The notes beneath the pieces were generated by a model. The model was not told the origin of the DNA. It did not search any database and saw nothing but the letters and a program-made list of their open reading frames with translations. From contig NZ_WHNW01000004.1 in NCBI RefSeq assembly GCF_009362845.1, forward strand, positions 25,113 to 89,112: 64,000 bases of DNA, given 5' to 3'. The stretch's first letter is position 1. Each line of letters opens with the position of its first letter. The stretch is from Ostreibacterium oceani. Its GTDB lineage: Bacteria; Pseudomonadota; Gammaproteobacteria; Cardiobacteriales; Ostreibacteriaceae. A program made the position numbers and the translations under genes. Of this stretch, positions 39,768 through 47,374 are shown piece by piece.

Positions 39768-40520
39768 ATGACTATAATGAAAACGCTGAAACGCTGGTGG
39801 CATCAGCTGTCCTCGCCGCATTATTTTAATAAAATAGCGGCGATTTGTGCGCCTGTTTTTTGGATGGCGGCACTGCTGTTGTTGGTGTTGGGGTTTGTTT
39901 GGGGGCTTTTTTTTGCACCGCCTGATTACCAGCAAAAAGATGCATTTCGTATTATCTATGTCCATGTGCCCAGTGCGTTTTTGTCGATGGCGGTTTACGT
40001 CTCGATGGCAGTGGCTGGGTTGATTTATTATGTGTGGCATATCAAACTAGCGGCGTACTATAATCGTGGCATGGTGTTGCTGGGTGCATTGTTTACCGTG
40101 CTGGCATTATTTACTGGCGCCGTCTGGGGCAAGCCAATGTGGGGGACGTACTGGTCATGGCGCGATCCACGCCTGTTGGCAGAACTGCTTTTGTTATTTT
40201 TGTATTTGGGTTATTGGTCGCTGACGATTACGATTGAGCGCAAAGCCTTTGCTGACAAAATGGGGGCGATTTTGTTGGTCGTTGGTGTGATAAATATCCC
40301 TATTATCCACTACAGTGTCGTTTGGTGGAACTCGCTACATCAGGGCGCCACGATTATGAAGCTAGGTAAGCCGTCAATTGATGCGAGCATGTTGTGGCCG
40401 TTACTTATTTGTTTGCTGGGTTTTTTATGCTTTACCATTGCCTATGGCTTTGCGGCGACGCGTTATCAAATGATTGCCGCGAACAATGAAAAGCGTTGGC
40501 TGGAGCGTCTCTACTCATGA
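39768..40520 (+). CDS. ccmC: Heme exporter protein C
   Basis: A 250-residue membrane protein with six helices that presents heme to CcmE in cytochrome c maturation. The tryptophan-rich WWD segment is VWGKPMWGTYWSWRDPRL, flanked by the heme-binding His in YVHVPSAF and in HYSVVWWNSLH. First gene of ccmCDEFGHI-ccmAB; a TATAAT at 39613-39618 may belong to the operon promoter, but a matching -35 is not clear. Confidence 0.95.
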   Translation: MTIMKTLKRWWHQLSSPHYFNKIAAICAPVFWMAALLLLVLGFVWGLFFAPPDYQQKDAFRIIYVHVPSAFLSMAVYVSMAVAGLIYYVWHIKLAAYYNRGMVLLGALFTVLALFTGAVWGKPMWGTYWSWRDPRLLAELLLLFLYLGYWSLTITIERKAFADKMGAILLVVGVINIPIIHYSVVWWNSLHQGATIMKLGKPSIDASMLWPLLICLLGFLCFTIAYGFAATRYQMIAANNEKRWLERLYS

Positions 40521-40762
40521 GTAATAACAATATGTTACAAGATTTTTTGCAAGTTTTGCATATGAGTGGCTATGCGGTGTTTGTATGGTCTGCTTTTGCC
40601 ATGACGATGGCGGTGTTGATCGGCGTGTATTGTTATGTGAGTAGCCGCTTAAAAGCGGCACTAAAACAGCAAGAAGAAATGAATCAAGCAATAAAATCAC
40701 AGAAATCAGCGCAGCAATTGTCGCCATCGCCCTCCGAAAAAATCAATGGCGGTGTAGGATGA
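40517..40762 (+). CDS. ccmD: Heme exporter protein D
   Basis: An 81-residue protein with one membrane helix (GYAVFVWSAFAMTMAVLIGVY) and a charged cytoplasmic tail, which stabilises the CcmABCD-CcmE release complex. The ATG at 40517 overlaps the ccmC stop (ATGA); earlier in-frame codons are inside ccmC. Confidence 0.9.
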   Translation: MSNNNMLQDFLQVLHMSGYAVFVWSAFAMTMAVLIGVYCYVSSRLKAALKQQEEMNQAIKSQKSAQQLSPSPSEKINGGVG

Positions 40763-41277
40763 AACCGGCACGTAAACGACGTTTAATCACCCTAATAGCG
40801 GTGCTAGTCGGTGTTAGTAGTGCATTGTCACTATTGTTGGTTGCTAAGGGGTCTAATTTGAACCATTATATGGAAATATCCGAAGTGCATGCAGGCAACG
40901 CACCAATCGGTAAGACGATTAGCATTGGTGGATTGGTTGAAGCAGGTTCAATTGAACGCACAGCGGGTTCGCTTCAAGTAGTGTTTAGTGTGACCGATAC
41001 CAAAAAAAATATTACCGTTCACTACGAAGGTATCTTGCCTGATTTGTTTCGCGAGGGGCAAGGTGTGCTAGCACGTGGAAAACTAATCGATAAACAGACC
41101 TTTGTGGCGCACAATATCTTGGCAAAGCACGACGAAAACTACCTCCCCAAAGAAGTCAAAGCCGAACTTGAAAAGCAAGGGTATTTTCAGCAGGCAACAC
41201 CAACATTATCTGGCGATGATTCGTCATTGCGTGGCGCAGATAATACGGGTTATGGCGGTACGGGTTATGGCGATTAA
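40759..41277 (+). CDS. ccmE: Cytochrome c maturation heme chaperone CcmE
   Basis: A 172-residue periplasmic heme chaperone anchored by an N-terminal helix (LITLIAVLVGVSSALSLLLV). The covalent heme-binding His with its downstream Tyr is in FVAHNILAKHDENYLP (HxxxY). It carries heme from CcmC to CcmF. A Gly/Tyr-rich tail (NTGYGGTGYGD) ends the protein. ATGA overlap with ccmD. Confidence 0.95.
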   Translation: MKPARKRRLITLIAVLVGVSSALSLLLVAKGSNLNHYMEISEVHAGNAPIGKTISIGGLVEAGSIERTAGSLQVVFSVTDTKKNITVHYEGILPDLFREGQGVLARGKLIDKQTFVAHNILAKHDENYLPKEVKAELEKQGYFQQATPTLSGDDSSLRGADNTGYGGTGYGD

Positions 41278-41292
41278 TCATAGGGTAAATCA

Positions 41293-43257
41293 ATGATTTT
41301 TTCTATTATAGAATTAGGACATTATGCGTTAATATTAGCGCTCGTCATGATGTTTTTACAAACCTTGCTGGGTTTTTTTGGTGCTTATGCCAAAGAGCTC
41401 AACAGCATCGCTTACAGTGTTCGCGCGGTAAAAGTAGGGTTTTATTTAACGACAGTATCGCTGGTGGCACTGGCCGTTGGTTTTTTGCAGAATGATTTCA
41501 GTGTCAAATATATTGCCTCTAACTCGAATGCCTATCTACCGTGGTATTATAAAGTGTCGGCGGTGTGGTCTAATCATGAAGGCTCATTATTGCTATGGGC
41601 GTGGATTTTGGCGCTGTGGAATTATCTTGTCGCTGTCAAGGCGACGCATTTGCCCCCCAGTTTTCGCGGCAAAGTTTTTGGCGTATTAGGTGTGATTAGC
41701 GCTGGATTTTTTTCTTTTCTTATTCTGACATCAAATCCGTTTGAACGATTACTGCCAGGCACGGCTGTTGGCGGATTCCCCTTGATTGGAGAAGACTTAA
41801 ACCCGCTGTTGCATGACATTGGCCTGATTTTGCATCCGCCGCTGTTATATGTCGGTTATGTCGGGTTTTCGGTGTCGTTTGCGTTTATTGTTGCCGCTTT
41901 GTTAGAAGGTCGCTTGGATACGGCTTGGGCACGGTGGTGTCGGCCTTGGACGATGATGGCATGGTCATTTTTGACACTAGGTATTGCGTTGGGTAGTTGG
42001 TGGGCTTACTATGAATTGGGCTGGGGCGGTTGGTGGTTTTGGGATCCAGTAGAAAACGCCTCATTGATGCCGTGGCTTGCAGGGACGGCATTGATTCATT
42101 GCTTGGCAGCGACTGAAAAGCGCGATGTGTTTAAGATTTGGACGGCTTTTTTGGCGATTTCGACATTTTCTTTATCGCTGATTGGTACATTTTTAGTGCG
42201 CTCAGGCGTGCTCACTTCGGTACATGCCTTCGCCAACGACCCAACACGCGGTATTTATATCCTAGCATTGCTGGTGTTGATTTCAGGTAGTGCGTTTTTA
42301 CTGTTGATTTTGCGCGCGCATCGGTTGCATGGTACGGGTCGATTTGAGTGGGTTTCACGAGAAATGGGGCTGTTGTTAAATAATCTGTTGCTGTGTGCGG
42401 CGTGTCTGATCGTCTTTATTGGTACGTTGGCGCCGCTGTTTTATGATGTGCTGGATTGGGGGCAAATTTCCGTCGGGCCTGCGTATTTCAACCAGATGAT
42501 GCTTTATGTATTCGTTATTACTCTTGTTTTTTTAATGTTTGCGCCGTATTTGCACTGGAAACGTAATCGGCTTGCGCGATTTGTCCCGATGCTATTGATT
42601 GCCGCGGTATTTTCTTTGGGCTTGTCAGCCTTGATTAATGCGCCGTTTGCCTCGTTTAGTTGGTTGGCGTTTGCATTGACCGCGCTAACCCTAACGGCGG
42701 TTTTGTCGACTGGCTGGGATGCCTATCAGCAATCCTATCGAACCAAGACGGGCTGGCGATTACCGAGTAAAGGCTATTTAGCCATGCTAACCGGGCATTT
42801 GGGGTTTTTGGTCATGTCATTAGGTATTATTTTGGTGTCAAGCTATGCCGTGGAAATTGACCGTTATGTACGCTCAGGAGAGACGGTCGAGGTTGGCGAT
42901 TATAATTTTGAAATGAAGGGCTTAAGCAATCACGAAAACAAAATTTATTCGGCTTCGCGGATTGATTTTTTGGTGCGTGATGCAGAAAATAACGTGGTAG
43001 GTATTATGTCGCCTGAAAAACGCCAATACGAAGTTTCGCAAATGCCAACCGCTGAATCAGCACTGCGAGCGAGTTTGACCGAGGATATTTATGTTGCCTT
43101 GGGCGAACCCCAAGATGCAGGGGCTTGGTCGGTGCGATTTCAAATTAAACCCTATATTCGTTGGGTATGGTTGGGGGCATTGATTATGTCACTGGCAACT
43201 GTATTTGTGCTCCGTGATCGACGCTATCGACTAAAACAATCTCAGGCAGTGTCATGA
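41293..43257 (+). CDS. ccmF: Cytochrome c heme lyase subunit CcmF
   Basis: A 654-residue polytopic membrane protein. The WWD heme-handling motif is GSWWAYYELGWGGWWFWDPVENASL (shown in part: WGGWWFWDPVEN), with conserved periplasmic His in SNHEGSLLLW and LLHDIGLILHPPLLY. It attaches heme to apocytochrome c with CcmH and CcmI. A 15-bp duplication (GTCATGAGGCAAGAT twice) follows its stop codon. Confidence 0.95.
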   Translation: MIFSIIELGHYALILALVMMFLQTLLGFFGAYAKELNSIAYSVRAVKVGFYLTTVSLVALAVGFLQNDFSVKYIASNSNAYLPWYYKVSAVWSNHEGSLLLWAWILALWNYLVAVKATHLPPSFRGKVFGVLGVISAGFFSFLILTSNPFERLLPGTAVGGFPLIGEDLNPLLHDIGLILHPPLLYVGYVGFSVSFAFIVAALLEGRLDTAWARWCRPWTMMAWSFLTLGIALGSWWAYYELGWGGWWFWDPVENASLMPWLAGTALIHCLAATEKRDVFKIWTAFLAISTFSLSLIGTFLVRSGVLTSVHAFANDPTRGIYILALLVLISGSAFLLLILRAHRLHGTGRFEWVSREMGLLLNNLLLCAACLIVFIGTLAPLFYDVLDWGQISVGPAYFNQMMLYVFVITLVFLMFAPYLHWKRNRLARFVPMLLIAAVFSLGLSALINAPFASFSWLAFALTALTLTAVLSTGWDAYQQSYRTKTGWRLPSKGYLAMLTGHLGFLVMSLGIILVSSYAVEIDRYVRSGETVEVGDYNFEMKGLSNHENKIYSASRIDFLVRDAENNVVGIMSPEKRQYEVSQMPTAESALRASLTEDIYVALGEPQDAGAWSVRFQIKPYIRWVWLGALIMSLATVFVLRDRRYRLKQSQAVS

Positions 43258-43301
43258 GGCAAGATGTCATGAGGCAAGATATCAATGAGGCATGAAATTC
43301 G

Positions 43302-43868
43302 ATGAAAAATAACGCGATAGACACAGGCATCAGTCGGACGCAGTGGATTAGTCTGGGTGTGTTTTTGCTTGCTATTGCGGTAGTGACGGTCGTTTTTTTC
43401 CGAGGATTGGGGCGAGACCCGCAAGCACTAGACTTAATGACAGCAGGCAAGCCCATCCCCGACTTTTCCTTGCCCAATTTGCTGGCAGAGAGCCACCTGT
43501 CTCGAGCCGATTTAACGACGGATCAGGGGTTTTATTTGATGAATTTTTGGGGTTCTTGGTGTCCTGCGTGTTACGACGAGCACACGTTTTTAATGGCGCT
43601 AGGCAAAAAACATGCCCTGTACGGTGTGAATTGGAAAGATGACAAAGCCGATGCGTTAGCGTTTTTGCAAAATTTAGGCAATCCATTTAAGCAAATTATT
43701 GTTGATAAACATAGCGAGCTGGCTATTAATATGGGTGTTTACGGTGCGCCTGAGACATTTTTAATTACAGCAGATGGCGTGATTATTCACCGCTATGCGG
43801 GGCCGCTAGATGACGCATTGTGGCAATCAGAATTTGTGCCAATCATTAACCAACTTGAAACCAACTAA
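43302..43868 (+). CDS. ccmG: Thiol:disulfide interchange protein CcmG/DsbE
   Basis: A 188-residue periplasmic thioredoxin-like protein held by an N-terminal helix (WISLGVFLLAIAVVTVVFF). The active site is NFWGSWCPACYDEH, with the cis-Pro in YGAPETFLI. It reduces the apocytochrome CXXCH or CcmH disulfide before heme attachment. Confidence 0.95.
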   Translation: MKNNAIDTGISRTQWISLGVFLLAIAVVTVVFFRGLGRDPQALDLMTAGKPIPDFSLPNLLAESHLSRADLTTDQGFYLMNFWGSWCPACYDEHTFLMALGKKHALYGVNWKDDKADALAFLQNLGNPFKQIIVDKHSELAINMGVYGAPETFLITADGVIIHRYAGPLDDALWQSEFVPIINQLETN

Positions 43869-43873
43869 CGCCG

Positions 43874-44410
43874 ATGTCTTTATTAAATCACTACCGCTGG
43901 CTTTATCGTGTGATGACACTGATGGTTGCCGTGCTTGGCGCTTGGGCTACGGCAAGCTTTAATGTCTATAGTTTTGAAGAACGCGCACAAGAACAACAGT
44001 TTCAGAAAATCATCAAAGACCTACGTTGTCCTAAGTGCCAAAACAACAATCTGCACGATTCGAATGCACCGCTTGCGGTGGATATCAAGGATTATGTGTA
44101 TGATTCGTTGCAAACGGGGCAGGGCGAGGCGCAAATCGTTGAATTTTTGGTGGATAAATACGGTGAATTCATTATTTATTCACCGCAGCGCCCTGTGTTA
44201 TGGTTGTTGCCTTGGGTAGTTGCTGGCGGTTTATTTTTATGGGCGTTGATTAACATCTCATACAAAAGAAATCAGCAACGCAAACGGCAAGCGGATGCCG
44301 CATCAGCCAGTATGCGAGAAATTATTGCCGATTATGAGCACGAACACGAGCCCGAACACGAGCCCGAACACGAGCGCGAACGCGAGCAATCATCCAAGAG
44401 GCAACCATGA
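43874..44410 (+). CDS. ccmH: Cytochrome c maturation protein CcmH (CcmL type) with repetitive tail
   Basis: A 178-residue protein: N-terminal helix, periplasmic three-helix domain with the LRCPKCQNNNL redox motif, YGEFIIYSP, and a second helix (VLWLLPWVVAGGLFLWALI). It handles the apocytochrome thiols with CcmG. The C-terminal tail ends in EHEP repeats from 12-bp units (44342-44389), placed in the cytoplasm. It overlaps ccmI by ATGA. Confidence 0.93.
   Translation: MSLLNHYRWLYRVMTLMVAVLGAWATASFNVYSFEERAQEQQFQKIIKDLRCPKCQNNNLHDSNAPLAVDIKDYVYDSLQTGQGEAQIVEFLVDKYGEFIIYSPQRPVLWLLPWVVAGGLFLWALINISYKRNQQRKRQADAASASMREIIADYEHEHEPEHEPEHEREREQSSKRQP
44342..44389. repeat. 12-bp tandem repeat in the ccmH tail, 4 units
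   Basis: Units GAACACGAGCCC twice, then GAACACGAGCGC and GAACGCGAGCAA, encoding Glu-His-Glu-Pro-like repeats in frame. Confidence 0.9.
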
Positions 44411-45735
44411 TTATTGCTATTTTTCTTGCTTTGTTGGTGCTGCTGATGTTTATGTGGCCAGTGAAGACAGAGACAGGGTTTGACGAAAAAGGTGAAGCCA
44501 TTAAAATTTATCGAGACGAAGTGGCGTTTATCGATAAACAATACCAAACGGGCTTGATTGATGCGCAAGACAAAGCCAAATTACTAGAAGAACTTGACGT
44601 GAAAACTACGTCAGCGATTGCGCGTATAGAGAAAAAGCAATTCGCGCCACGACTGCGCTATACGCCCGTATTTGCCGTGGCATTGGTCATCACGCTGTCG
44701 CTGGCGATTTATTTTGTTTATTTACAAAATAGTCAAATCAAACGCTGGCATGATTTTAAACAGGTGCATCAAGCGCAAGTGACCGAAGGACTGTTTGATG
44801 GTGATGTGATTGCCGCTTTTTTAAACAAAAATCCGTCATTAGCCAGTCATTATTGCTTCACCATGCAGCAGACGCTATTGGCAAATTATCATGCCAACGC
44901 GGATGCGCTGGCAAATTTAGCCAATTGCCATTTGATTGTCGGCTATCCACAGCTCGCAAGGCAAGCTATTTCTCGCGGTTTGGGCGAACAGCCTGAGCAC
45001 GCAGCGCTGAATTTTTTATCAGCAGAAATGGCGTTTGTTGAAAATAATCAATTAAGTAGTGACGATTTAGACCGATTATTTATTACGATTCGGGCAGAAC
45101 CAAAACACAAAGGTGCGCTGCGTTTATTGGGGATTAATAGCCTGAATTTGGGGCAGTATGCGCAGGCACAGTTCTTTTTTGATAATTTGCGCGAGGTTGA
45201 AACAGACCCGCAAATTTTGGCGCTTTTAGACGATATTGACGAGACAATTGCGGCACGCCAAGCAGCAGAAGCGGCGGCTGGCGAGCCCCAACCAGTAACG
45301 CCGCAATCAGCGCCCCAAACGTCGCCGCAAGCAACTAAACAATTACAACCCAATGAGGCATCGCTTCATTTGGCGATAGCGGTTAGCCCCACGTTGATTG
45401 CGTCACAGCCTGAAACGCTGACCTGGCCAAAATCCGTTTTTGTTGTGGTCAAATCCGTTGATGGTGCCTTGATTAATGCCAGTAAATATATCATGCAAGA
45501 TGCCAATCAAGCGCTAGTAGTGACCATTTCAGATGATATGCCACAAGCCATGCAAAGACAATCGCTGGCCGACTTTGAGCAAGTCACGGTGACCGCACGA
45601 GTGAGCCTCGATGATCAACCAATTGCTGCCAGCGGTGATTTAACGAGCGGTGCGATACCGATTCCTGTATTAAAAAACACCGAGGGACCAGCGCGCGCGC
45701 CTTATCGATTGGTTATTGATCGAACGGTGCCGTAA
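44407..45735 (+). CDS. ccmI: Cytochrome c-type biogenesis protein CcmI (CycH)
   Basis: A 442-residue apocytochrome chaperone. Two N-terminal helices (IIAIFLALLVLLMFMW and VFAVALVITLSLAIYFVY) frame a cytoplasmic coiled segment; a periplasmic TPR-like region (about 145-290) and a C-terminal beta domain (LHLAIAVSPTL to YRLVIDRTVP) follow. A Pro/Gln/Ala linker separates the last two. It hands apocytochrome to CcmFH. Confidence 0.9.
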   Translation: MIIAIFLALLVLLMFMWPVKTETGFDEKGEAIKIYRDEVAFIDKQYQTGLIDAQDKAKLLEELDVKTTSAIARIEKKQFAPRLRYTPVFAVALVITLSLAIYFVYLQNSQIKRWHDFKQVHQAQVTEGLFDGDVIAAFLNKNPSLASHYCFTMQQTLLANYHANADALANLANCHLIVGYPQLARQAISRGLGEQPEHAALNFLSAEMAFVENNQLSSDDLDRLFITIRAEPKHKGALRLLGINSLNLGQYAQAQFFFDNLREVETDPQILALLDDIDETIAARQAAEAAAGEPQPVTPQSAPQTSPQATKQLQPNEASLHLAIAVSPTLIASQPETLTWPKSVFVVVKSVDGALINASKYIMQDANQALVVTISDDMPQAMQRQSLADFEQVTVTARVSLDDQPIAASGDLTSGAIPIPVLKNTEGPARAPYRLVIDRTVP

Positions 45736-45741
45736 TAGTCC

Positions 45742-46650
45742 ATGAATACGATAAGCTCAGAAAGGGCATCACCGCACAAGGCGTCATCGGACAAGACGTC
45801 ATCGCACAACCCCCCGCCGATTTGCGAAGTGAGCGAGCTGGCGTTGGTGCGTGGCAATCGGTTGTTGTTTCAAGGCATGAATTTTATCTTATCGCGCGGT
45901 GAAGCGTTGCATATCTGCGGACGAAATGGTAGCGGAAAAACAAGTTTATTTAAAATGATAATGGGGTTATTGCCGCCTAACAAAGGACTCATTCGAATTG
46001 CAGGTCAGTCGCCCCAACAGTTTTTGGCAAACAATCCAGCAAGTATTGCGTATTTAGGGCATCAAACGCCCATTAAGCGTGAGTTTACCGTGGCAGAAAA
46101 TATCCGCTTGAATACCCAACTATTTGCCAATTGGCGACCTAGCCAAACGCAAATTGATGTGGCCTTGGATGCAGTTGGGTTACAATCATTTGCTGATACG
46201 CTAGCGGGTAAGCTTTCTGCGGGTCAGCAGCGACGAATTTTGTTATCTAGATTGTGGTTATCACCACTGGAATCAGCGGCGCAATCCTCATCGCAATCCT
46301 CATCGCAATCACAATCACAATCACAATCACAATCACAATCACAATCACAATCACAATCACAATCACAATCACAATCACAATCACAATCACAATCACAATC
46401 ACAATCACAATCACAATCACAATCACAATCACAATCACAATCACAATCACAAGACATAAAACAACCGCCTCCCCAGCTCTGGCTGCTTGATGAGCCCTTG
46501 GCGGCACTAGATACCAACGGTGTCGATGCATTACTGGCGCAAATTGCACGATTGGCTGCTAGCGGGCATAGTTTTATTCTGACATCTCACCAGTCGATTC
46601 GTTTGGAGTGCGCGTTACAAACGCTCACGATAGGCAAAGCACATAAATGA
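45742..46650 (+). CDS. ccmA: Cytochrome c biogenesis ATPase CcmA with long Ser-Gln repeat insert
   Basis: ABC ATPase that, with CcmB, releases holo-CcmE from CcmC. Walker A is GRNGSGKTS (from residue 60), signature LSAGQQRRILLSRLW (near 157), Walker B LWLLDEPLAALD (Asp250). The 302-residue product is about 95 longer than usual. The N-terminal 25 residues are Ser/His-rich. The main excess is a run of 24 Ser-Gln pairs (residues 190-237) after two QSSS units, placed between signature helix and Walker B strand. The frame is open and motifs intact, so the protein is probably functional with a flexible loop. Length is likely to vary between strains. Confidence 0.92.
   Translation: MNTISSERASPHKASSDKTSSHNPPPICEVSELALVRGNRLLFQGMNFILSRGEALHICGRNGSGKTSLFKMIMGLLPPNKGLIRIAGQSPQQFLANNPASIAYLGHQTPIKREFTVAENIRLNTQLFANWRPSQTQIDVALDAVGLQSFADTLAGKLSAGQQRRILLSRLWLSPLESAAQSSSQSSSQSQSQSQSQSQSQSQSQSQSQSQSQSQSQSQSQSQSQSQSQSQSQSQSQDIKQPPPQLWLLDEPLAALDTNGVDALLAQIARLAASGHSFILTSHQSIRLECALQTLTIGKAHK
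46309..46452. repeat. Hexanucleotide tandem array inside ccmA, 24 perfect copies
   Basis: TCACAA is repeated 24 times without a single mismatch (144 bp). Just before it are two copies of the 12-bp CAATCCTCATCG-type unit (about 46281-46304). Perfect identity points to recent expansion by replication slippage. The unit is a multiple of three, so gain or loss of copies keeps the ccmA frame. Confidence 0.97.
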
Positions 46651-46705
46651 TAACGCCTCTGATGATGATAAAGAACACCGCACTGAGCGCTGGGGATAGT
46701 GCACA

Positions 46706-47374
46706 GTGATAAAGGCACTGCTTTATCGGGAGTGGTTACTTGCGGTGCGAAAGTTGCCCGTATTGTTGCAGCCTGTCAGTTTTTTGTTGATTCTCATTAC
46801 GATTTTCCCGATTGCGGTGGGTGCTGAGACCACGCTATTGCAACAAATTGCACCCGGTGTTATTTGGGTCGGCGTGCTGCTATCGGTATTGCTTTCTAGC
46901 GAACATTTTTACCAAGCCGATTACCAAGACGGTACCATCGCGCAGTGGTATTTGGCAGGTAATGACCGACTATTACTCAGTGTATTGGCTAAACTACTGG
47001 TGCAAAGCGCGTTGCAAATCATCCCCGTGTTATTGCTATTACCGATACTGAGTTTATTTTACACACTGCCTGTGATGACCAGCGTATTGATTGGTTTGAC
47101 CATTCTTTTGGGTGGGCCGTGTTTGGTTTTGTTGGCAATGCTTGGGGCAGCGATTACCGTCGCCGTGCCGCGCGCTGGGCTACTGTTGATTGTGATTATT
47201 TTGCCTTTGTACTTTCCTGTGATTATTTTCGCGATATCGGCGATGCGTCATTATAGCGATGGTTTTAGCCCCGTGTCTGATTTTGCCCTGTTGGGTGCTT
47301 TGTTATTATTTAAGTTAACCCTGATGCCATTTGCCATTGTCGCGGCACTAAAAACCGCACTATCTGAAAGTTAG
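46706..47374 (+). CDS. ccmB: Heme exporter protein B
   Basis: A 222-residue membrane protein with six helices, partner of CcmA. Conserved-looking features are the start ALLYREWLLAVRK, DYQDGTIAQWYLAG and LLGGPCLVLLAMLGAAITV. The start codon is GTG at 46706, 55 bp after ccmA. It closes the operon; ccmAB normally come first, so the order here is rearranged. Confidence 0.92.
   Translation: MIKALLYREWLLAVRKLPVLLQPVSFLLILITIFPIAVGAETTLLQQIAPGVIWVGVLLSVLLSSEHFYQADYQDGTIAQWYLAGNDRLLLSVLAKLLVQSALQIIPVLLLLPILSLFYTLPVMTSVLIGLTILLGGPCLVLLAMLGAAITVAVPRAGLLLIVIILPLYFPVIIFAISAMRHYSDGFSPVSDFALLGALLLFKLTLMPFAIVAALKTALSES

Follow-up and report, generated by a model that had tools for sequence, protein, structure and literature searches.

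The ccmA gene of Ostreibacterium oceani carries a perfect hexanucleotide array, (TCACAA)x24, that encodes (Ser-Gln)24 in frame between the ABC signature and the Walker B motif of the ATPase. We attribute this array, with a probability of about 80%, to near-neutral, in-frame expansion by slippage in a permissive loop of CcmA, in a repeat-prone genome. It appears to result from an array expansion that affects the whole lineage and is filtered by reading frame. Among the many hundreds of arrays in this genome it looks like the extreme case, not like a dedicated switch. We infer the slippage mechanism, the near-neutrality, and an ongoing change in length from the observations below. Recent expansion and variation of array length from cell to cell are plausible.

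The array was identified at positions 46309..46452 (+ strand) of the window, i.e., the whole 64,000-nucleotide stretch of DNA under analysis, by examination of the sequence, TRF, and a period scan. All 24 copies are error-free and lie where the sequence-only reading had located them. The maximal perfect period-6 run covers 147 bp (46306-46452), and the longest other perfect run in the window is 50 bp (periods 1-39, multiples of 6 excluded). With its perfect 6-bp units, kept in frame and far above chance, the array is a hexanucleotide microsatellite. TCACAA in at least five copies was found at a single place in the genome, ccmA, and in 0 of 368 other gammaproteobacterial genomes. We also considered whether the genome holds further Ser-Gln repeats of this type and rejected the idea, as a search for TCNCAR x3 returned no place besides ccmA. 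The hexamer is adjoined upstream by a 12-bp array, CAATCCTCATCG x2.6, which encodes QSSSQSSSQ (46280..46310, + strand; TRF and sequence), and the flank thus forms a graded series, first the 12-bp and then the 6-bp array. Because the 12-bp array lies directly upstream, expansion of the hexamer seems to have started where an already repetitive tract ended, and CAATCCTCATCG is the probable seed. Frameshift-mediated on/off switching is impossible because a 6-bp unit within an ORF holds the frame at any copy number, and the argument that this repeat cannot switch ccmA off was therefore correct. The array does not belong with contingency loci, which switch by frameshift or by promoter spacing.

The gene itself (45742..46650, + strand; ORF, profiles, alignment, and model) codes for a heme ABC exporter ATPase of 302 residues. 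Its earlier identification as CcmA with intact catalytic motifs was borne out. The whole protein scored 162.8 bits against the TIGR01189 profile (cut-off, 131.6), its Pfam match is ABC_tran, and the best PDB matches found with Foldseek are E. coli CcmA, with TM-scores of 0.87-0.88 by target length. The stricter model NF010061 gave 178.9 versus a cut-off of 195, its match being split by the insert. Walker A, the signature, Walker B with its catalytic Glu, and the H-loop with its His are intact, with G60/N62/G63/G65/K66, L158-Q162, D250-E251-P252, and H283 invariant in an alignment with twelve homologs (alignment A1), and the array lies between LSAGQQ of the signature and LWLLDEP of Walker B. 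The CcmA protein probably works. The description of this ATPase as essential is too strong in general, as E. coli deleted for ccmAB still allows holo-CcmE formation (PMC9616876).

ccmA is part of a whole System I operon of nine genes, ccmC-D-E-F-G-H-I-A-B (39768..47374, + strand), delineated by ORFs and profiles. ccmC (39768-40520), ccmD (40496-40762), ccmE (40759-41277), and ccmF (41293-43257) were assigned by reading of sequence and position only, and ccmG (43302-43868), ccmH (43874-44410), ccmI (44407-45735), and ccmB (46706-47374) by ORF and family profile, all on the + strand. The ORFs of the eight genes other than ccmA are intact. TRF detected further arrays on the + strand of the operon. 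A second array of ccmA, with the 15-bp unit TCATCGCACAAGACG x2.7 (45769..45809), lies in a 26-residue N-terminal extension revealed by alignment A1; GAGCCCGAACAC x4.3 (44336..44387) is in frame in the C-terminal tail of the ccmH ORF, coding for EHEPEHEPEHE; TACGGGTTATGGCGG x1.9 (41244..41272) falls in the C-terminal tail of the ccmE ORF; and TGTCATGAGGCAAGA x2.8 (43250..43292) spans the ccmF stop codon and the gap between ccmF and ccmG.

The protein resembles E. coli CcmA, the ATPase of CcmABCD (PDB 7f02 and 8ce1), in family, motifs, fold, and operon partners, but differs from it by the N-terminal extension and by a much longer loop. In HMMER alignments with the two structures, residues 28-174 and 245-288 match and 70 residues replace 2. 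The whole inserted loop, delimited from these alignments and alignment A1, comprises residues 175-244 (PLESAAQSSSQSSSQ...SQDIKQPPPQ; 46264..46473, + strand). The spacer counted from the signature LSAGQ, or its variant, to DEP is 19 residues long in 62 of 68 CcmA homologs, 20 in four, 22 in one, and 32 in one; here it is 87, i.e., ~68 above the usual length. The two larger exceptions among the homologs carry inserts in this same loop. In CcmA of the order-mate L080, the loop holds PAPKPAP (LPAPKPAP), and in that of L095 (genome G170, same class) it holds an Asn-rich insert (NAKQNNDSNGANANA / AALNAKQNNDSNGANANA). The latter is hydrophilic and keeps the frame, like the insert of O. oceani, but has 13 residues instead of ~68 and no Ser-Gln repeat. 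That both inserts fall in the same loop indicates that the site accepts hydrophilic, low-complexity inserts independently and is permissive. In an AlphaFold model built on a 13-sequence alignment, the ABC core mostly has pLDDT values above 90, and residues 196-229 are below 50. The repeat segment is thus predicted to be disordered, and in our reading of the model the insert leaves the signature helix, loops out over the surface without a fixed structure, and rejoins the core at the Walker B strand.

The possibility that such an array is special to ccmA was rejected, as like arrays occur throughout the 864 kb of the genome that were sampled. This sample, ~40% of the genome (stretches L122-L141 and L206-L225 plus the window, G000), was compared with 795 kb from eleven order-mates, counting perfect arrays with units of 4-30 bp; none of the other relatives searched belongs to the family of this genome. 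We found 287 arrays in O. oceani, or 33.2 per 100 kb, a density ~14 times higher than in the order-mates, which together had 19 arrays, with an average of 2.4 and individual values of 0-5 per 100 kb. TRF similarly yielded 51 arrays per 100 kb here versus 0-12 in six order-mates. By extrapolation, the whole 2.18-Mb genome would hold ~700 such arrays. Their unit length peaks at 10-15 bp, and the ccmA array has the highest copy number of all arrays in the sample. GC content was discarded as the cause of the excess, several order-mates having nearly equal GC.

The distribution of arrays relative to genes points to selection for the reading frame. With genes taken as long ORFs, without a gene caller, the unit is divisible by 3 in 122 of 128 coding arrays versus 41 of 118 intergenic ones, and coding DNA contains 16.7 arrays per 100 kb versus 120 per 100 kb in non-coding DNA. 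As the intergenic value is the one-third expected without selection whereas nearly all coding units are multiples of 3, arrays arise irrespective of frame and selection purges those that break genes. Enrichment of trinucleotide units in coding sequence has been ascribed to frame selection (PMC12699852). Array position within proteins was analyzed for the nine further products of array-containing genes that have a Pfam match, and in 9/9 the array lies outside the domains, in linkers or at the ends. These include the tau region of DnaX, a TolA/TonB-like protein, a T2SS C-like protein, MinC (between its two domains), an LD-carboxypeptidase (in the inter-domain linker), and a RarA/MgsA-type AAA protein (at the N terminus). 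Unlike in these nine proteins, the ccmA array is within the catalytic fold. Given this location and the highest copy number of the sample, some selection could conceivably act on it.

Loss of mismatch repair was rejected as the cause of the array load, as the MutS and MutL profiles are matched over their entire length; the genome also contains recJ and xseA. MutS would, moreover, not generally be expected to process loops of 6 bp. No profile match to SbcD or exonuclease I was found in the genome, and both are absent in some order-mates too. Loss of SbcCD and exonuclease I was rejected as a sufficient cause, since 75 kb of the order-mate G002, in which neither is found, contain no arrays. As a side observation, xseA, which codes for the large subunit of ExoVII (G000:C2:74293-75387), has a frame of 551 residues versus ~430-500 in order-mates, and its profile match ends at position 350; it may carry a repeat insert as well.

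These observations are consistent with the following scenario. A hexamer microsatellite would have grown by replication slippage or misaligned recombination in a Ser/Gln-rich linker of ccmA, in a genome that makes or keeps short tandem arrays at ~14 times the density seen in its order-mates. The expansion would have lengthened a surface loop by ~68 disordered residues in a CcmA that is normal in other respects. The insert would be tolerated for two reasons: its unit length is divisible by 3, and the loop accepts insertions.

The number of copies has to be considered apart from their origin. Contig ends of the assembly share exactly 140 bp at ~10 separate junctions, and because of these exact overlaps k is likely to be ~141, the contig overlaps alone indicating a de Bruijn graph assembler. 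At such a k, the graph represents a period-6 tract as a simple path as long as the tract does not exceed 146 bp, and 147 bp is the shortest length that repeats a 141-mer. The 147-bp tract of ccmA, equal to k plus one unit, contains the only repeated 141-mer of the window. The count of 24 is thus insecure, at the apparent resolution limit of the assembly, although the presence of a long perfect tract is secure. With a likelihood that we put somewhat short of even, the repeat is real but the assembler went once around a 6-bp loop of the graph, so that 24 is a floor or an error. The exact overlaps and a tract at the minimum for one repeated 141-mer argue for this, the true count being possibly higher, and tandem repeats are a documented source of assembly errors (PMC6868369). 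Against it, the stretches L219 and L131 hold 13 and 29 repeated 141-mers, showing that some repeats beyond k were resolved, perhaps through read pairs. The idea that contigs end in tandem arrays was also considered and rejected, as the ends are mostly shared 140-bp dispersed repeats. A misjudged length is compatible with expansion by slippage, and its probability stands apart from that of the latter.

A more far-reaching account, which we regard as unlikely though worth stating, is that a distinct mutational process of this lineage keeps making short tandem arrays with ~10-15 bp units genome-wide. Those that survive because they are in frame, with ccmA as the extreme case, would steadily supply housekeeping proteins with disordered segments and would change the activity of some, CcmA included.

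The sequence-only reading had favored tuning of the loop length, and perhaps of ATPase coupling, through probable length variation between cells. In a tunable locus of this kind, copy number would vary between cells and the length of the loop would adjust the ATPase activity or NBD closure of CcmABCD, thus grading heme release to CcmE. The frame-keeping unit and the location of the array, which links the signature helix to Walker B close to the catalytic machinery, are in line with this proposal, and there are precedents in kind. The (GCTGGC)x3 repeat of mutL in Salmonella and E. coli is likewise an in-frame hexanucleotide repeat in an ATPase that is altered by slippage and switches function; in contrast to the long, predicted disordered ccmA array, however, it has three copies only and is part of the lid over the ATP pocket, where a change in copy number causes loss of function (PMC2955026). 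E. coli tolA similarly contains an in-frame repeat tract, which tolerates widely differing copy numbers (2-39 tested) and whose copy number alters stress tolerance; strain variation and graded phenotypes are known for TolA, whereas the CcmA array lies inside an ATPase fold (PMC3477136). Several observations speak against tuning. The loop is predicted to be disordered and is outside the motifs, like arrays occur in unrelated genes and in intergenic DNA, and the same loop tolerates other inserts in other CcmA proteins. In addition, the coding hexanucleotide repeats of Haemophilus influenzae, which are also frame-neutral arrays in ORFs, are constant in length between strains (PMC2651432). As comparable arrays are found genome-wide and the loop takes unrelated low-complexity inserts in other CcmA proteins, we did not retain the claim of tuned ATPase coupling and consider such a function quite improbable.

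We regard as highly improbable that ccmA is a decaying gene in which the insert is tolerated since the Ccm system is no longer needed: many enzymes would be impaired by so large an insert separating two catalytic motifs, but the ORF is open, the invariant residues of all four motifs are kept, and the other ccm ORFs show no damage. That the repeat is wholly an artefact of assembly or sequencing, a long array being absent from the natural ccmA, is scarcely credible, for although repeats are known to cause assembly errors (PMC6868369), a k of ~141 requires reads with at least ~141 bp of pure repeat, hundreds of arrays well under read length show a like tendency, and the ccmA array keeps the frame and is part of a low-complexity region that was already seeded.

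Near-neutral expansion in a permissive loop remains our preferred explanation. No report of repeats in CcmA was found in the literature searched, and the statement that such an expansion is undescribed holds for this exact site in that literature. It does not extend to the phenomenon, as in-frame intragenic repeats are known in bacteria, including the 6-bp repeat of the MutL ATP lid (PMC2955026). This may be a new site for a known phenomenon, and the array load of the genome may itself deserve study. The ccmA repeat represents a natural insertion experiment and marks a site in the core of an ABC ATPase that is apparently able to take ~68 disordered residues. With its unusual array density and clean frame filter, the genome would be suited to measuring the birth rate of repeats, and the sieving of repeats by selection would be measurable, in a lineage that still has mutS and mutL.

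Other arrays of the sample deserve mention. The gene for a TolA/TonB-like protein (L225:5836-6873) contains a perfect array that is 155 bp long and has an 18-bp unit (RKAEAE x8.6); it possibly corresponds to the repeat that varies in E. coli tolA. That for DnaX, the tau/gamma clamp loader (L206:3112-5373), has a 12-bp array, PAEM x8, in the C-terminal region. Finally, many 21-bp arrays (AQTARDN) are present in an ORF of 2739 residues (L126:7730-15949), perhaps coding for a large coiled-coil or surface protein.
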